Source: Arthrobacter sp. CAU 1506 (lineage in GTDB: Bacteria > Actinomycetota > Actinomycetes > Actinomycetales > Micrococcaceae). Taken from it: DNA of 64,000 nucleotides. A model generated the notes under the pieces. The model was not told where the DNA came from and did no database searches. It saw only the letters and a program-made list of their open reading frames with translations. The stretch covers positions 1 to 64,000 of the forward strand of contig NZ_SUKC01000012.1 of NCBI RefSeq assembly GCF_005047635.1, in the 5' to 3' direction. A program made the position numbers and the translations under genes. Positions 58,099 through 64,000 of this stretch are shown piece by piece (within the stretch, counting starts at the first letter, position 1; each line of letters opens with the position of its first letter).

Positions 58099-60207
58099 AT
58101 GACGTACACCCCCACTGCCGAAACGCCGGAGCCGGTTGTAGACAGCGGCGCTACCGTTGACGTGGCCGGGCTCGGCGAGGCTCTGCTGGGCCGCTGGGCC
58201 GAGGTCCGTAAGGCGGCCCGTGACCTCGCCGGCCATCCGGAGCTCTACCGGATCGACGGACTGCCGATGGATGAGCACCGCGAACGGGTGGTGGGCCAGT
58301 TGAAGTACCTGGTCGACGCCGGGGCCGTGCACCGCGCGTTCCCGCGGCGGCTGGGCGGCGAGGACAACCACGGCGGTAACATCGCCGGTTTCGAGGAACT
58401 GGTCACCGCCGATCCCTCGCTGCAGATCAAGGCCGGCGTGCAGTGGGGCCTGTTCGGCGCCGCCGTGCTGCATCTGGGCACCCGGGAGCACCACGACCGC
58501 TGGCTGCCGGACATCATGAGCCTGAAGACGCCCGGCGCCTTCGCCATGACCGAGACCGGCCACGGATCGGACGTTGCCAGCATCGCCACCACCGCCACGT
58601 ACGACCCGGCGACGCAGGAGTTCGTCGTCCACACCCCGTTCCGCGCCGCGTGGAAGGACTACCTCGGCAACGCCGCCAACGACGGTCTGGCCGCGGTGGT
58701 GTTCGCGCACCTGGTCACCCGCGGGGTGGACCACGGCGTCCATGCGTTCTACGTCCCCATCCGCGACGAGCAGCGCAGCTTCCTGCCCGGTATCGGCGGC
58801 GAGGACGACGGCTACAAGGGCGGCCTGAACGGCATCGACAACGGCCGGCTGCACTTCGACCAGGTCCGGATTCCGCGCACCAACCTGCTGAACCGGTACG
58901 GCGACGTGGCCGAAGACGGCACCTACTCCTCCCCCATTGCCAGCCCCGGCCGCCGCTTTTTCACCATGCTGGGCACCTTGGTGCAGGGCAGGGTCTCGTT
59001 GGACGGCGCCGCGGTGGCTGCCAGCAAGGTGGCACTGGCCATCGCCGTCCGTTACGCCACCGAGCGGCGGCAGTTCAACGCCTCCTCGGACACGGCCGAA
59101 GAGGTGCTGCTGGATTACCAGCGACACCAGCGCCGGCTGCTGCCCCGGCTGGCCACTACTTACGCGGCCTCGTTCGCCCATGAACAACTGCTGCAGAAGT
59201 TCGACGACGTGTTCTCCGGTGCGCATGACACCGACGAGGACCGGCAGGATCTGGAGACCCTGGCGGCGGCGTTGAAGTCGCTCAGCACCTGGCACGCCTT
59301 GGACACGCTGCAGGAGTGCCGCGAGGCGACCGGCGGCGCCGGCTTCCTGGCTGAGAACCGGTTCGCCGCCCTGCGCGCCGACCTGGACATCTACGCCACG
59401 TTCGAGGGCGACAACACGGTGCTGCTGCAGTTGGTTGCCAAGCGCCTGCTGGCGGACTACGCCAATGAATTCCGTCATGCCGACTTCGGCGTCATGGCCC
59501 GCTGGGTGGCGCACCAGGCGGCCGACGTCACGCTGCACCGCACCGGGCTGCGCCAGGTAGCCCAGACCTTCGCGGACAGCGGATCGGAGCGCAAGAGCGC
59601 CAACTACCTCAAGGATCCGGAAACCCAGCGCCAACTGCTCACCGACCGGGTCTCCACCATGGTGGCTGGTATCGGCGGCGCCTTGCGCAACGCCACCCGA
59701 CTTCCGCAAAAGGAAGCCGCGGCACTGTTCAATGAGCACCAGCATGAACTGATCGAGGCGGCCCGCGCCCACGCCGAACTGCTGCAATGGGAAGCCTTTA
59801 GCGCCGCGATCGCCGAGATCGAAGACCACGGCACCCGGCAGGTGCTGACCTGGCTGCGGGACCTCTTCGGGTTGTCGCTGGTGGAAAAGAACCTGGGCTG
59901 GTACCTGATGTACGGCCGGCTGTCGGCGCAGCGCGCCCGGATCCTCGGCACCTACATCAACCGGCTGCTGTCCCGGCTCCGCCCGCACGCCCATGACCTG
60001 GTGGATGCCTTCGGCTACGGCCCGGAGCACCTGCGCGCGAAGATTGCCAGCGGCGCGGAGCAAGAACGCCAGGACGAAGCCATGGCGTACGCCCGCTCAC
60101 GGCGCGCCAGCGGCGAAGCCCCGGTGGACGAAAAGGTGCTGATGGCCCGGCGCAAGGCCGAGGAGAAGCTCAGCAAGAACCGGCAGAAGCTGGAAGCCAA
60201 GAACTAG
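58099..60207 (+). CDS. Acyl-CoA oxidase/dehydrogenase (ACOX type)
   Basis: 702-aa ACAD-superfamily flavoprotein with the extra C-terminal domain of acyl-CoA oxidases. FAD-binding is indicated by FAMTETGHGSDVASIATTA, and the catalytic Glu lies in IYATFEGDNTVLLQ. It catalyses the first step of fatty-acid beta-oxidation, passing electrons to oxygen (or another acceptor). In Mtb the corresponding place is taken by fadE5. The ATG has GAAGGAAC upstream. The C-terminus is a basic helix (ARRKAEEKLSKNRQKLEAK). Confidence 0.93.
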   Translation: MTYTPTAETPEPVVDSGATVDVAGLGEALLGRWAEVRKAARDLAGHPELYRIDGLPMDEHRERVVGQLKYLVDAGAVHRAFPRRLGGEDNHGGNIAGFEELVTADPSLQIKAGVQWGLFGAAVLHLGTREHHDRWLPDIMSLKTPGAFAMTETGHGSDVASIATTATYDPATQEFVVHTPFRAAWKDYLGNAANDGLAAVVFAHLVTRGVDHGVHAFYVPIRDEQRSFLPGIGGEDDGYKGGLNGIDNGRLHFDQVRIPRTNLLNRYGDVAEDGTYSSPIASPGRRFFTMLGTLVQGRVSLDGAAVAASKVALAIAVRYATERRQFNASSDTAEEVLLDYQRHQRRLLPRLATTYAASFAHEQLLQKFDDVFSGAHDTDEDRQDLETLAAALKSLSTWHALDTLQECREATGGAGFLAENRFAALRADLDIYATFEGDNTVLLQLVAKRLLADYANEFRHADFGVMARWVAHQAADVTLHRTGLRQVAQTFADSGSERKSANYLKDPETQRQLLTDRVSTMVAGIGGALRNATRLPQKEAAALFNEHQHELIEAARAHAELLQWEAFSAAIAEIEDHGTRQVLTWLRDLFGLSLVEKNLGWYLMYGRLSAQRARILGTYINRLLSRLRPHAHDLVDAFGYGPEHLRAKIASGAEQERQDEAMAYARSRRASGEAPVDEKVLMARRKAEEKLSKNRQKLEAKN

Positions 60208-60211
60208 GACA

Positions 60212-60269
60212 ACGACGGCGGGGCTCCCCTTGGGCGACACGGCTCGCCTTGGCGGGGCCCCGCCGTCGT
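60212..60269 (+). terminator. Strong hairpin downstream of acyl-CoA oxidase
   Basis: ACGACGGCGGGGC (60212-60224) pairs perfectly with GCCCCGCCGTCGT (60257-60269). The 32-nt loop contains a smaller inner stem. It separates the oxidase gene from the Wadjet operon. Confidence 0.7.
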
Positions 60270-60287
60270 GAGCGGAGCTGGACCAGC

Positions 60288-60293
60288 TAAGAT
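60288..60293 (+). promoter_or_regulatory. Possible -10 element TAAGAT of jetABC operon
   Basis: TAAGAT lies 43 nt before the jetA ATG, just after the upstream hairpin. A matching -35 is not clear. Confidence 0.4.
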
Positions 60294-60336
60294 TTTCTGG
60301 GCCCGATCTTCCCTTCCGCGGGCGGAAAGCACTTCC

Positions 60337-61800
60337 ATGTCCTTCACCCAGAATGCCCTTGCCCGCTGGCAGGAGTTGCAGGCGCTGGCCGCCACGCCCG
60401 GGCTTAAGCTCGCCTCCGCGAGTCCGTGGGTGCCGGCGCTGTTCAGGACCGCTTTCACCCGCTCCCGCCCGCAGCTGCCGTTGGAAGAGTTTCACCGCAG
60501 TACCGACTCGTTCCTGGCCGAACTGCGCCGCGCCGGGGTGGAGCTGCGCGTGGACTGGTCCGCCCGCCAGTACGCCGACGACTGGGTGGCCCGGCGCTAC
60601 CTGTCCCGGCTGCGCGAGGACGGCCGGTTCGTCTACGAACCCACCGAGACCACGGTGCGGTTCCTGGAGTACCTGGACGGCCTGACCGGGACTTCCTCGT
60701 CGTTGAACAGCTCCCGGCTGGCCACGCTGCTTACCCGCGTCGAAGCGCTGGCGCATGAAACGGACCCCGACCCCGAGGCCCGGATCGCCGTGCTGCAGGC
60801 CGAAATCGCCCAGCGCCAGGACAAGATCCGCGCGCTGGAAGCCGGCGAAGCACCTGCGTCGCTGCCCGACGCCACCGCGGTGGAGGCAGCCCGCGACGTC
60901 TTGGCGCTGGCCGCCGGCCTGCCGGCCGATTTCAAGCGGATGCGTGACGGCCTGGAGCTCATGCTGCACACCCTGCGCGCCGAGATTGTGGAGTCCAACG
61001 CCACCAAGGGCATCACCATGGGCGAGGTGCTCGAGGCGGACAAGCGGCTGCGCGGCACCAGCGAGGGCCGGACATACGAGAGCTTCACGGCCTTCCTGAA
61101 CGACGAGGAGCAGCAGCAGCGCTTCCGGCAGGCCATCGCCGAGGTGCTCGAGCGGGACTTCGCCGACGCCCTGGAGGCCGAGGACCGGCGGGCGCTGCAG
61201 CGGCTGATGCCCCAATTGCGGGCGCAATCGGCGGAGATCCACCGGATCTACGGGCGGCTCTCGGAGAGCATGCACACCTTCGTGCAGTCGGACGACGTCC
61301 GCGAATCGATCCAGCTGCGGCAGACCATCCGGGCGGCCGAGACCGCCATCCTCAAGTCCCGGCGCAGCCTGCCGGGCCGCCGTGCCGTGATTCCCGCGCC
61401 CGAACTCTTCGGCTCCGGCTTTGAATCGGTCAGCATGGTCCGGCTCTACGATCCTCAGGACCACCAGGCCCCGGCAAAGCTGCCGGAACCGCCTGCCTTC
61501 ACCGAAGCGGACATCCACCGCGCGCTTCGCACGCCGCAGGCGGACGCGGCGGCCCTCGCCCGCGCCGTGCGCACCGCCGTCGAGGCCCGCGGGCCGGTGC
61601 CGCTGTCCGAGGTCTATGCCGACTTGGAAACGCAGCACCGGCACCTCAACAGTCTGCGGTGGCTGCTCCAGCATGCGCTGAATTCCGGTGGCACGCTGGA
61701 CCCGCAGGCCACCGACACCGTGACCCTGATCCAGATCGACGGCAGCGAACGCACCGCACTGCTGCCCGCCGTCACCTTCACGAAAGCTGCAGATTCATGA
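60337..61800 (+). CDS. jetA: Wadjet anti-plasmid protein JetA (DUF3375, MksF-like)
   Basis: 487-aa DUF3375 protein, the kleisin-like subunit of a Wadjet/MksBEFG SMC complex. The N-terminal region (about 1-130, RPQLPLEEFHRSTDSFLAEL, WVARRYLSRLREDGRFVYEP) is winged-helix-like, followed by a coiled coil (about 145-170), a conserved core (about 230-330: TKGITMGEVLEADKRLRGT, EGRTYESFTAFL), and a C-terminal winged-helix region. JetA links the JetC ATPase heads and binds JetB. GGAAAG lies 8 nt upstream of the ATG. The stop overlaps the jetB start. Confidence 0.93.
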   Translation: MSFTQNALARWQELQALAATPGLKLASASPWVPALFRTAFTRSRPQLPLEEFHRSTDSFLAELRRAGVELRVDWSARQYADDWVARRYLSRLREDGRFVYEPTETTVRFLEYLDGLTGTSSSLNSSRLATLLTRVEALAHETDPDPEARIAVLQAEIAQRQDKIRALEAGEAPASLPDATAVEAARDVLALAAGLPADFKRMRDGLELMLHTLRAEIVESNATKGITMGEVLEADKRLRGTSEGRTYESFTAFLNDEEQQQRFRQAIAEVLERDFADALEAEDRRALQRLMPQLRAQSAEIHRIYGRLSESMHTFVQSDDVRESIQLRQTIRAAETAILKSRRSLPGRRAVIPAPELFGSGFESVSMVRLYDPQDHQAPAKLPEPPAFTEADIHRALRTPQADAAALARAVRTAVEARGPVPLSEVYADLETQHRHLNSLRWLLQHALNSGGTLDPQATDTVTLIQIDGSERTALLPAVTFTKAADS

Positions 61801-62720
61801 ACGAGATGACCGAGGCCCGCGTTGCACCCGCCGGAGGCCCGTCCGACGGCAACCCGCAGGATGAATCCGCGGAGCTTCAGGAGTCTGCAGGGCTGGACGC
61901 CGGGTTGGACGACCAGGACTGGCTCGACACTGGGCTGGAGGACCGGGCCGAGCCCGACGACGCAGCCGGGCTGGACGACCAGGACGGGCTGGACGCCCAG
62001 GCTGGGTTGGACGACCAGGACGGGCTGGACGACCAGGCTGAACCGGATGCAACTGCCCGGGACGAGGTCCGGGACGGGCCCGAGTTGTTCGACGGCGATA
62101 CCGGCACCCTGCCGCTGAAGCTGCGCCAGGCCCTGATCAGGCTGCTGCGCGGCCCCTACCTGGACGCCTCGTCCACGGACCGCGTCTACGACACCGTGGT
62201 GGAACACCGGCGGATCCTGGCGTCCCGGCTCAGCGAACTGTTCCTGCAACTGGTCATTGACGAAGACCGGAAGGTTGCCATGCTGCGCCCGGTCCCGATG
62301 GCCGAACCGCACACCACCGCCCTGCAGCGGCAGCGGGATATGACCCGGGAAGAAACGCTGCTGCTGCTGCGGATGCGCCTGGTGCAGGACCGTCACGCCG
62401 GCACCGGAACTGAGCCACTGCTCAGCCGTGCCGACGTCATCGACGTGCTGCAGGACTACGTGGATCCGGAGCAACGCGATGCCAAGCACGTAGAGGACCT
62501 GGCTGACGCCTCGTTGCGCAAGCTGGTCAACGAGCGCCGGCTCCTGCAGGCAACCGAACTTCCGGATGTGTGGGTCATTTCGCCGGCACTTCCGCTGGCC
62601 TTGCCGTTCGAGAACATCGGCGACATCCCGGCGGTCATCAACTCGCTGGCCGGCGATGATCAACCGGCAGGCAGCGGGCCGGAAACGGATCAGTTGGCTT
62701 TCGACGGCGGGGAGGCCTGA
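61797..62720 (+). CDS. jetB: Wadjet protein JetB (DUF4194, MksE-like) with acidic repeat extension
   Basis: 307-aa DUF4194 protein, the KITE/MksE-like subunit. The conserved part spans about residues 95-305 (LPLKLRQALIRLLRGPYLDA, RREETLLLL-type helices, VIDVLQDYV, WVISPALPLALPF). The first 95 residues are a highly acidic low-complexity extension made of GLDDQDGLD-type repeats, which I do not know from typical JetB. ATG 61797 overlaps the jetA TGA (ATGA); a second ATG is at 61806. JetB bridges JetA and helps control the SMC ATPase. Confidence 0.9.
   Translation: MNEMTEARVAPAGGPSDGNPQDESAELQESAGLDAGLDDQDWLDTGLEDRAEPDDAAGLDDQDGLDAQAGLDDQDGLDDQAEPDATARDEVRDGPELFDGDTGTLPLKLRQALIRLLRGPYLDASSTDRVYDTVVEHRRILASRLSELFLQLVIDEDRKVAMLRPVPMAEPHTTALQRQRDMTREETLLLLRMRLVQDRHAGTGTEPLLSRADVIDVLQDYVDPEQRDAKHVEDLADASLRKLVNERRLLQATELPDVWVISPALPLALPFENIGDIPAVINSLAGDDQPAGSGPETDQLAFDGGEA
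61890..62050 (+). repeat. Acidic tandem repeat in jetB (36-bp unit)
   Basis: Two 36-bp copies (61968-62003 and 62004-62039) differ at two positions and encode GLDDQDGLD-type units. A third, degenerate copy starts at 61902 and a fragment lies at 61890. The repeats are in frame and encode a disordered Asp/Gln-rich stretch. Confidence 0.85.
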
Positions 62721-62722
62721 GC

Positions 62723-64000
62723 ATGAGCATTGAGACAATCCTGCCGATGGACGGGCTGCTCAACCCGGGCCAGCACCGGCTAACGTCCGTGCAGTTGGTC
62801 AACTGGGGCACGTTCGACGGCGCCCACACCATCCGCGTGGACCGCGCCGGCACGTTGTTGACCGGGGGTTCCGGGGTGGGCAAATCCACCATCTTTGACG
62901 GCATGCTGCAGGTGCTGGACGCCCGGCCCAAAATGAATGAGGCCGCGCAGACCAGCTCCGGCCACGCATCCGAGGAACGGCGTACCGCGTTCAGCTACAT
63001 GCGCGGGCGGCTGGGTGCCACGCCGGCCGACGGCGATGCTTCACAGACCGCCACGTTCTACCAGCGCCCCGGCGCCATCTGGTCGGCGGTCTGCCTGACC
63101 TTCGACAATGCGCTGGGCCAGACCACCAGCCTCTCGGTGATGCTGGACCTGCCGGCCAATGGCACCGAACACAATGTGGGCCGTTTCTACGTCCTGCACA
63201 ACAAGCCGCTGGACATCCCCCGCCTGGAGTCCGGCATGGCGGGCAGGTTCAGCAAAACATCGCTGGAGGCGCTGCTGCCGGGCAGCCAGGTCTTCGATTC
63301 GCACAAGGCCTTCGCGGAACGTTTCCGACAGGCGCTGGGCATCGACCAGGAAAAGGCGTTCGGCCTGCTGCGCACGCTGCAGACCGGCAAGGGCCTGGGC
63401 GGCACCGTCAACGACTTCTTCCGCAACCACGTGTTGGATACGCCGCGGACGCTGGCGGCGGCCGAAGAAGCAGTGCAGGACTTCAGCCACCTGCGCAGCA
63501 TCAGGCGGCAGCTGGAACGGGTCCGGCAGCAACGCGACCTGCTCGCTCCGGTGCCCCGGCTGCACCAGCAGCTGCAGGAGACACAGTCGCAGCTGGAGCG
63601 CAACATCCTCTTGGCCGACGTCGCCCTGCCGCTCTACCGGCGCCGCCTGGCACTGGAGTGCCAGGACCGGCAGATCGGGGTGTTGAGCGCGGAGGCGGCC
63701 ACCGCAACAGCGGAGCTGGCGGAGACCGAAGCGGCACGAACCGCGCTCAAGGAGAAAACGGCCCGGCTTTCCGCGCGGTACGGCAGCGAAGGCGGCGCCG
63801 CCGTCGCCACCCTGGAGCGCGAGCTGGCCGCAGCGCAGTCCGAGCTGCGCGCCCGCCAGTCGATCGAAGATTCCTTCCGGGCCGAAGCTGAGGCCGCGGG
63901 CCTTGACGCCGACTTCAGCCCCGGCGGGCTGGCGGCAGCGCGCAGCCGCGCCGCGGTGCTGGTCAAGGAGCTGCTGGCAGAAGCCGAGTCCGTCCGTGAA
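62723..64000 (+). CDS. jetC: Wadjet SMC-like ATPase JetC (MksB-like), truncated by window end
   Basis: The first 426 codons of an SMC/MukB-like protein run off the right edge without a stop. The start MSIETILPMDGLLNPGQHRL has GGAGG 7 nt upstream and lies 2 nt after jetB. The ATP-binding head has Walker A GGSGVGKST (48-56) and ALQVLDA-type helix; LQTGKGLGGTVNDFFRNHVL (about 214-233) is characteristic. From residue about 255 a long coiled coil begins (LRSIRRQLERVRQQRDLLAP onward). Typical JetC proteins exceed 1,000 aa, so most of it, and the nuclease gene jetD, should lie beyond the window. Confidence 0.93.
   Translation, partial: MSIETILPMDGLLNPGQHRLTSVQLVNWGTFDGAHTIRVDRAGTLLTGGSGVGKSTIFDGMLQVLDARPKMNEAAQTSSGHASEERRTAFSYMRGRLGATPADGDASQTATFYQRPGAIWSAVCLTFDNALGQTTSLSVMLDLPANGTEHNVGRFYVLHNKPLDIPRLESGMAGRFSKTSLEALLPGSQVFDSHKAFAERFRQALGIDQEKAFGLLRTLQTGKGLGGTVNDFFRNHVLDTPRTLAAAEEAVQDFSHLRSIRRQLERVRQQRDLLAPVPRLHQQLQETQSQLERNILLADVALPLYRRRLALECQDRQIGVLSAEAATATAELAETEAARTALKEKTARLSARYGSEGGAAVATLERELAAAQSELRARQSIEDSFRAEAEAAGLDADFSPGGLAAARSRAAVLVKELLAEAESVRE

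Follow-up and report, generated by a model that had tools for sequence, protein, structure and literature searches.

Does a set of Wadjet genes that lacks the DNA-cutting subunit still act as a defence system? This question is raised by an operon at the right edge of a stretch of 64,000 nucleotides from Arthrobacter sp. CAU 1506 (contig NZ_SUKC01000012.1, positions 1 to 64,000), which is called the window in the following. The operon consists of the genes jetA, jetB and jetC, and a preliminary description of the DNA had taken it for an anti-plasmid Wadjet defence operon. In the description of a review, JetABC supplies Wadjet with its motor and its sensing of DNA shape, and JetD does the cutting (PMC10586767). 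Neither a jetD gene after jetC nor a JetD_C domain anywhere in the genome could be detected, which leaves the defence reading unsupported. Judged from the sequence, the set probably organises DNA, as a second machine of this kind, and does not destroy plasmids as the Wadjet label suggests. With a probability of roughly 0.6, JetABC (= MksFEB) without JetD/MksG would be an MksBEF-like accessory condensin beside the normal Smc, that is, a loop extruder without a cutter.

Gene identities and organisation of the operon

The jetA gene (60337..61800, forward strand) starts with the ATG at 60337 and encodes an MksF-like kleisin of 487 amino acids (DUF3375). It is followed on the same strand by jetB (61797..62720, start ATG 61797) for an MksE-like KITE protein of 307 amino acids (DUF4194) and by jetC (62723..64000, continuing to position 66049 of the genome contig C4) for an MksB-like SMC ATPase of 1108 amino acids. 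The three genes are co-directional; an ATGA overlap joins the start of jetB to the stop of jetA, and jetC begins two bases past the stop of jetB. The right edge of the window falls within jetC, as had been noted before, and the rest of the gene was read from the contig up to C4:66049. Contig C4 comprises 126,205 bases, of which the window is the first 64,000, and it belongs to an assembly of 4.24 Mb in 44 contigs with an estimated completeness of 99.99%. The mechanical open reading frame of jetA opens at a GTG at 60268, and the JetA1 profile aligns from residue 1 of the protein that starts at the ATG at 60337.

The gene identities and the order JetA, JetB, JetC of a type I-like set, which the preliminary description had proposed, were upheld by Pfam and PADLOC. 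The three profile searches suggested there (PF11855, PF13835 and PF13555) all gave matches (321, 97 and 69 bits): in the Pfam search JetA scored 321 bits with PF11855 (cut-off 28.6), JetB, queried without its first methionine, 97.4 bits with PF13835 (cut-off 32.7), and JetC 69 bits with AAA_29 (PF13555) and 51 bits with SbcC_Walker_B (PF13558). The type I models of PADLOC gave 682 bits for JetA1, 237 bits for JetB1 and 1050 bits for JetC1. Since the Pfam and PADLOC scores are so high, the gene trio is beyond chance. The JetC protein carries the Walker A motif GGSGVGKST, the signature SGGEGQR and the Walker B motif TVMMDEAF.

The nearest solved relatives of the window JetA are the JetA chains 8q72, 8as8, 9qxt and 8dk1 (E values of 5e-22 to 3.4e-20), and the nearest of the window JetC is the JetC of 8as8 (E 1.7e-82). 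JetB resembles the solved JetB of 8as8 weakly by sequence (E 5e-4). An AlphaFold model of the C-terminal 228 residues of JetB (mean predicted local distance difference test score 75.7, predicted template modelling score 0.47) matched JetB of Pseudomonas aeruginosa PA14 (8dk1, E 1.6e-9) and MukE (3rpu, E 1.1e-6) in a fold search. The TM-scores are low (0.42 of the query for JetB and 0.29 for MukE) and the root mean square deviations amount to 15-16, which indicates that the domains of JetB match better than their whole arrangement. The window set thus shares with MukBEF a KITE protein whose model also matches MukE folds, but it differs from MukBEF in its JetC, which has 1108 amino acids and whose four solved matches at E <= 0.001 are all JetC and none of them MukB. 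At the start of jetB (61902-62040) lies an acidic repeat with an 18/36-base unit, GGGCTGGACGACCAGGAC, in about 5.9 copies. It codes for GLDDQDGLD-like residues, and none was seen in the JetB stretches of those relatives that were compared.

Absence of the JetD nuclease

The preliminary description had predicted a jetD-like nuclease (DUF3322/DUF2220) in the DNA to the right of the window and had itself named its absence as speaking against the defence reading; no such gene is present there. Downstream of jetC follow a histidine kinase gene, a response regulator gene and an opposite-strand gene without a Pfam match. Nothing in the genome matched the JetD_C domain (PF09983), even with a threshold of E <= 1; of the 14 genomes used as controls, Corynebacterium glutamicum scored above and Bacillus subtilis below the cut-off of this profile. 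The DUF3322 profile (PF11795) yielded two matches of 16 and 11.9 bits, both below the cut-off, as in several of the controls, and the match of 11.9 bits falls in the span of the smc gene on the opposite strand. Purpose-built JetD profiles were silent at both of these places, in the window and on the loci L001-L005. According to the published work, suppression of plasmid transformation in B. subtilis depends on all four subunits (PMC10586767), and mksG is needed in C. glutamicum (PMC10123090).

Two explanations for the missing gene were rejected. A local deletion of jetD or a break in the assembly does not apply because contig C4 runs on for 60 kb past jetC, of which the first 26 kb were read, and the relatives also lack jetD. 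A divergent JetD missed by Pfam is not expected either, since the custom profiles separate jetD-bearing from jetD-less loci. The first of these profiles, built from ten seeds of which one (L042) was taken from the wrong strand, scored at least 348 bits in each of 29 jetD-bearing loci and no more than 33 bits in those without jetD, and it found no match in the best 80 of 339 loci from named genomes. The profile rebuilt from nine seeds reached at least 309 bits in the same 29 of 29 loci and found nothing in the window. Weak matches of the rebuilt profile occurred in 2 of 58 loci of the core type defined below (21.4 and 23.2 bits), in 11 of the 80 named loci (18.7-26.5 bits) and in 20 of 44 other jetD-less loci, the best of the 12 matches listed for the latter scoring 40.1 bits. 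Those listed overlap the end of jetC, which is explained by the way the JetD rows were read: extending between stop codons, they reach back into jetC in a different frame.

Distribution of the nuclease-less set

The distribution of the set was assessed in even draws, rather than all genomes, of the family (probably Micrococcaceae; 295 genomes), the order (248) and the class (296). DUF3375 was found in 167 and JetD_C in 70 of the 295 family genomes. A core JetC profile, built from 16 jetD-less loci, recognised a core-type JetC (at least 975 bits) in 138 of the 295, the next score being 552 bits. In 95 of these 138 genomes, that of the window included, no JetD_C was detected at E <= 0.001. Core-type JetC was confined to the family of the window in the order sample and to the window's genome and two others of its family in the class sample. 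JetD_C was missing from 52 of the 93 JetC-bearing genomes of the order sample. The best 80 of 339 relatives from named genomes, which were records of Arthrobacter, Pseudarthrobacter and Paenarthrobacter and one unclassified Micrococcaceae bin, all contain JetA, JetB and JetC, and about 75 of them include at least 1.4 kb past jetC. Phage records gave one distant JetA match.

In the order sample, the family f11, which has a jetD-less JetABC clade of its own (L098-L114), contributed 18 genomes with JetC, two of which contain JetD_C, each together with a second JetC match. One f11 locus, L110 (genome G490), has an in-frame TAG within the JetC match and is possibly a pseudogene or the result of a sequencing error.

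Phylogeny of JetA and JetC

A tree of JetA from 71 family loci placed 41 jetD-less loci on one side of a branch with a support of 87 in the Shimodaira-Hasegawa-like approximate likelihood ratio test (SH-aLRT), and 39 of the 41 share a stem with a length of 2.5 changes per column. The tree of JetC was built from 85 order loci chosen from those fetched (28 core, 29 other jetD-less and 28 jetD-bearing), the incomplete loci L143 and L174 being excluded. In this tree all 28 core loci form one clade that is jetD-less throughout and stands on a stem of 0.82 changes per column (SH-aLRT 100). Eight f11 loci make up a second jetD-less clade (stem 0.89), nested in a group of 32 rows with 23 jetD-bearing ones, and a third, mixed group comprises 20 jetD-less and five jetD-bearing rows, with L053 and L063 among the jetD-less ones. 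The jetD label requires seven changes on the JetC tree, at least six by the starred branches, in a quick tree that carries long-branch warnings and whose label-change counts cannot separate gain from loss. On these trees, JetABC without JetD is common in the order and appears to have arisen or become fixed more than once.

Two further observations concern jetD-bearing loci. L133, with JetD, and L141, without it, belong to the same genus and have nearly identical JetC sequences, which suggests that the nuclease was lost very recently. Moreover, the family contains a second, very different canonical jetABCD subtype (14 loci: L018, L021-L026 and L028-L034), whose JetA stem measures 4.85 changes per column and whose JetB lacks the LW-x-GD-x-G start in 10 of the 14 loci, namely those with JetB read in frame.

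Conserved motifs, selection and the separate Smc

All 47 core loci examined retain the Walker A motif, the Walker B motif DEAF and the ABC signature SGGE[GR]QR, the last in the form SGGEGQR in 39 and SGGERQR in eight. For nine close pairs, the ratio of nonsynonymous to synonymous substitution rates (dN/dS) was 0.05-0.27 for JetC and 0.03-0.21 for JetA, with frames that run from stop to stop and with a saturated dS in the pair L065/L067. The values for JetB (0.09-0.74) include frame parts that overlap jetA and were not used. The core JetC clade is under purifying selection.

These values bear on whether the operon might be what is left of a Wadjet system in decay after the loss of jetD. Such losses seem to occur in other lineages, as the jetD-less L141 with a JetC nearly identical to that of the jetD-bearing L133 suggests. 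Decay is nevertheless highly improbable for the core clade: JetA, JetB and JetC stand together in 80 of 80 named loci (the best 80 of 339), the motifs are intact in all 47 loci, dN/dS of JetA and JetC lies far below 1 and the stem of the clade is deep.

The genome of the window also encodes a separate true Smc on contig C3 (907.7 bits). Of 22 relatives, 21 gave an Smc match at E <= 1e-150; the exception was G085, an assembly of 350 contigs.

Inheritance of JetC

For 13 genomes of the main branch, the identity matrices of JetC and Smc are correlated with r = 0.96. The window itself departs from this pattern. Its Smc is 78-83% identical to those of seven members of its own genus and is placed in that genus with full support, whereas its JetC (62723-64000; L002:2723-6049) is 45-46% identical to those of its own genus and 68% identical to that of the genus g32, with which it groups at a support of 100. 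Ten genomes listed as belonging to its own or the same genus all contain a core JetC. Since the same-genus genomes all carry core JetC, the most likely history is a horizontal replacement, in which the window species received a foreign JetC of the same clade in exchange for its own; the alternative is a sorting of old paralogues.

A putative accessory condensin

How could the complex work without JetD? In the proposed complex, JetA as kleisin and JetB as KITE subunit would link JetC dimers, which would bind DNA and use ATP to extrude loops like the known JetABC, without cutting. Since JetABC comprises the motor and the shape-sensing part, loading, ATP hydrolysis and loop extrusion should persist when the cutter is missing. 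By analogy with MksBEF of P. aeruginosa, it would serve as an accessory condensin alongside the normal Smc. We infer from these comparisons the loop extrusion, a chromosomal rather than a plasmid target and the physiological role of JetABC.

Three known systems help to delimit the set. With type I Wadjet (JetABCD/MksBEFG/EptABCD) it shares the DUF3375 kleisin, the DUF4194 KITE protein and the SMC ATPase, the order of the closely spaced or overlapping genes, the matches of all three proteins to the type I models of PADLOC and solved JetA and JetC proteins as the nearest solved sequences. It differs from type I Wadjet by the lack of JetD/MksG in operon and genome and by a JetC that belongs to a deep clade of its own, separate from the jetD-bearing order loci. 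MksBEF of P. aeruginosa is likewise described as a kleisin-KITE-SMC complex beside a normal Smc, with a reported loss of JetD (PMC10586767; PMC7485682). The likeness to MksBEF is one of gene content, and the clade of the window, unlike MksBEF, was seen only in its own family among the 248 order and 296 class genomes. P. aeruginosa PA14 has been reported to possess a four-gene mks operon (PMC10123090), so that P. aeruginosa holds more than one kind of mks set. A kleisin-KITE-SMC operon without MksG that is stably kept is a feature of an MksBEF-type condensin, and it was found here in 138 of 295 genomes and 28 of 28 tree rows. The third system is the JetA-JetB-JetC set of Paenarthrobacter lasiusi S21, which also lacks JetD and shares its genome with a four-gene type I Wadjet; it is likened to the window set by its gene list alone, and the genome paper lists it as 'Wadjet' defence without comment (PMC11719660). 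While MksBEF without MksG is an already known kind of system, a literature search limited to open-licence papers found no description of this jetD-less actinobacterial clade.

Several observations weigh against an accessory condensin. The correlation between JetC and Smc falls to r = 0.57 over all 22 genomes (0.64 without the window), which is lower because JetC has three deep branches. The loci L053 and L063 stand beside the core in the JetA tree but in the mixed group of the JetC tree; they were not counted as core and were excluded from the motif count. A JetD_C is carried by 43 of the 138 core-type genomes, either on a contig other than that of the core jetC or at a distance of 21 kb or more from it. 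Two core-type copies, among 16 plasmid records with any JetC match, are located on megaplasmids of Arthrobacter (0.75 and 1.35 Mb), and horizontal replacement as proposed for the window JetC is more usual for accessory or defence genes. In C. glutamicum, whose system has MksG, no influence of MksB on the folding of the chromosome was reportedly detected (PMC7083940). Finally, all 39 core loci tested retain the N-terminal motif LF-x-GD-x-G of JetB, which resembles the LW-x-GD-x-G of jetD-bearing relatives, and thus a loss of the partner surface is not demonstrated. The motif 'IFDR', described in a review as the JetD contact of JetB (PMC10586767), is not literally present in the jetD-bearing JetB sequences compared.

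Some of these points would also fit a non-cutting control of plasmids or foreign DNA, for instance by holding or compacting small circles, which would still amount to immunity or copy-number control. JetABC is the part of Wadjet that senses DNA shape (PMC10586767), mutants of mksB, mksF and mksG in C. glutamicum are reported to raise the copy number of one plasmid (PMC10123090), and the presence of JetD_C beside the core clade in 43 of 138 genomes means that the job of the core set need not equal that of a canonical Wadjet. We consider such a role possible but unlikely, as MksG was needed in the same C. glutamicum work (PMC10123090), the close tracking of Smc by main-branch JetC (r = 0.96) fits a housekeeping role better and two of the copies are themselves borne by megaplasmids.

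A possible nuclease elsewhere in the genome

The set could also be a working anti-plasmid defence that relies on a nuclease encoded elsewhere, either the JetD of a canonical locus acting in trans or a different enzyme. The JetD_C domains in 43 of 138 core-type genomes and the conserved N-terminal motif of JetB would agree with this, and the neighbourhoods of the core loci offer one candidate. These were surveyed at 41 loci (39 core and two divergent), for 40 of which about 5 kb upstream were read. In 12 of the 41, a gene for a RecB-like nuclease fused to an SF1-type helicase (TIGR03491, TM0106 family) lies upstream of and co-directional with jetABC, as it does in one megaplasmid locus, that of NZ_CP012477.1, where it stops 151 bases ahead of jetA. 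The gene was recorded at L069:740-4891 (forward strand), L055, L060-L062, L064-L067, L073, L083 and L085 and additionally at L281:3059-6679, and it is possibly an ancestral neighbour or partner of the nuclease-less jetABC. It was found neither in the window nor in the next 28 kb, the only part of the genome searched for it. A replacement nuclease next door was rejected because no neighbour gene cluster is common to all core loci. A nuclease acting from elsewhere appears quite unlikely: 95 of the 138 genomes, that of the window included, lack JetD_C, no gene is shared by the flanks of all core loci and the RecB-like gene is missing from the surroundings of the window operon. Moreover, in all 30 best-scoring JetA loci, JetD lies 5.2-6.4 kb from its own JetA, and 19 of these 30 canonical loci are in core-type genomes.

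Significance for the annotation of Wadjet systems

An accessory condensin of this kind would bear on the origin of condensins, since MukBEF, and likely MksBEF too, may descend from a Wadjet-like defence machine according to a review (PMC10586767). That transition could be tested in the natural pairs offered by a family in which JetABC is widely retained without the cutter and 43 of the 138 core-type genomes have a JetD-bearing system at another place. It seems an even bet that in the Micrococcales Wadjet has more than once yielded stable nuclease-free SMC complexes, represented at least by the family clade and the f11 clade. These complexes would now act as second condensins or would control DNA without cutting it, and canonical Wadjet would be gained and lost alongside. 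If this is true, a good part of the 'Wadjet' calls in these actinobacteria would not be defence systems. A survey reports Wadjet in 42% of Actinobacteria and in 7% of other bacteria (PMC10482375), and one published genome already lists a JetA-JetB-JetC set as Wadjet defence (PMC11719660). The Wadjet-defence reading over-reads a gene set without its defining effector; so corrected, the set is a well-bounded variant.

Flanking DNA and neighbouring genes

Downstream of jetC, contig C4 encodes a short KdpD-like DUF4118 histidine kinase (C4:66153-67652) with DUF4118, HisKA and HATPase_c domains, in which no KdpD sensor domain was found. It is followed by a KdpE-like response regulator (C4:67634-68323) and by the gene without a Pfam match (C4:68365-70386), which lies on the strand opposite to jetABC. 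The KdpDE pair was rejected as a component of the system because it is not adjacent to other jetABC loci, apart from one weak and distant KdpE-like match (L047). The ten neighbours of the operon gave no defence match except two weak response-regulator hits, PD-T4-6 and PDC-M60B.

Upstream, outside the system, lies a gene for an acyl-CoA oxidase/dehydrogenase (58099..60207, forward strand; PF22924, PF01756). It is absent beside the other jetABC loci read, and the named loci gave matches of about 32 bits only. An own promoter of the operon, as assumed before, could not be recognised: a scan of 60100-60420, which is not decisive for an actinobacterium, found no sigma-70-like site. The strong terminator described upstream of jetA holds in part. 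A pattern scan detected no T-tailed terminator before jetA and gave a single weak 5-bp site, at 60276. An inverted repeat rich in GC (60212..60269, forward strand), which lies between jetA and the acyl-CoA oxidase gene, does form a very stable hairpin, without a T run, the segment 60205-60285 folding with -51.3 kcal/mol (z -4.65).

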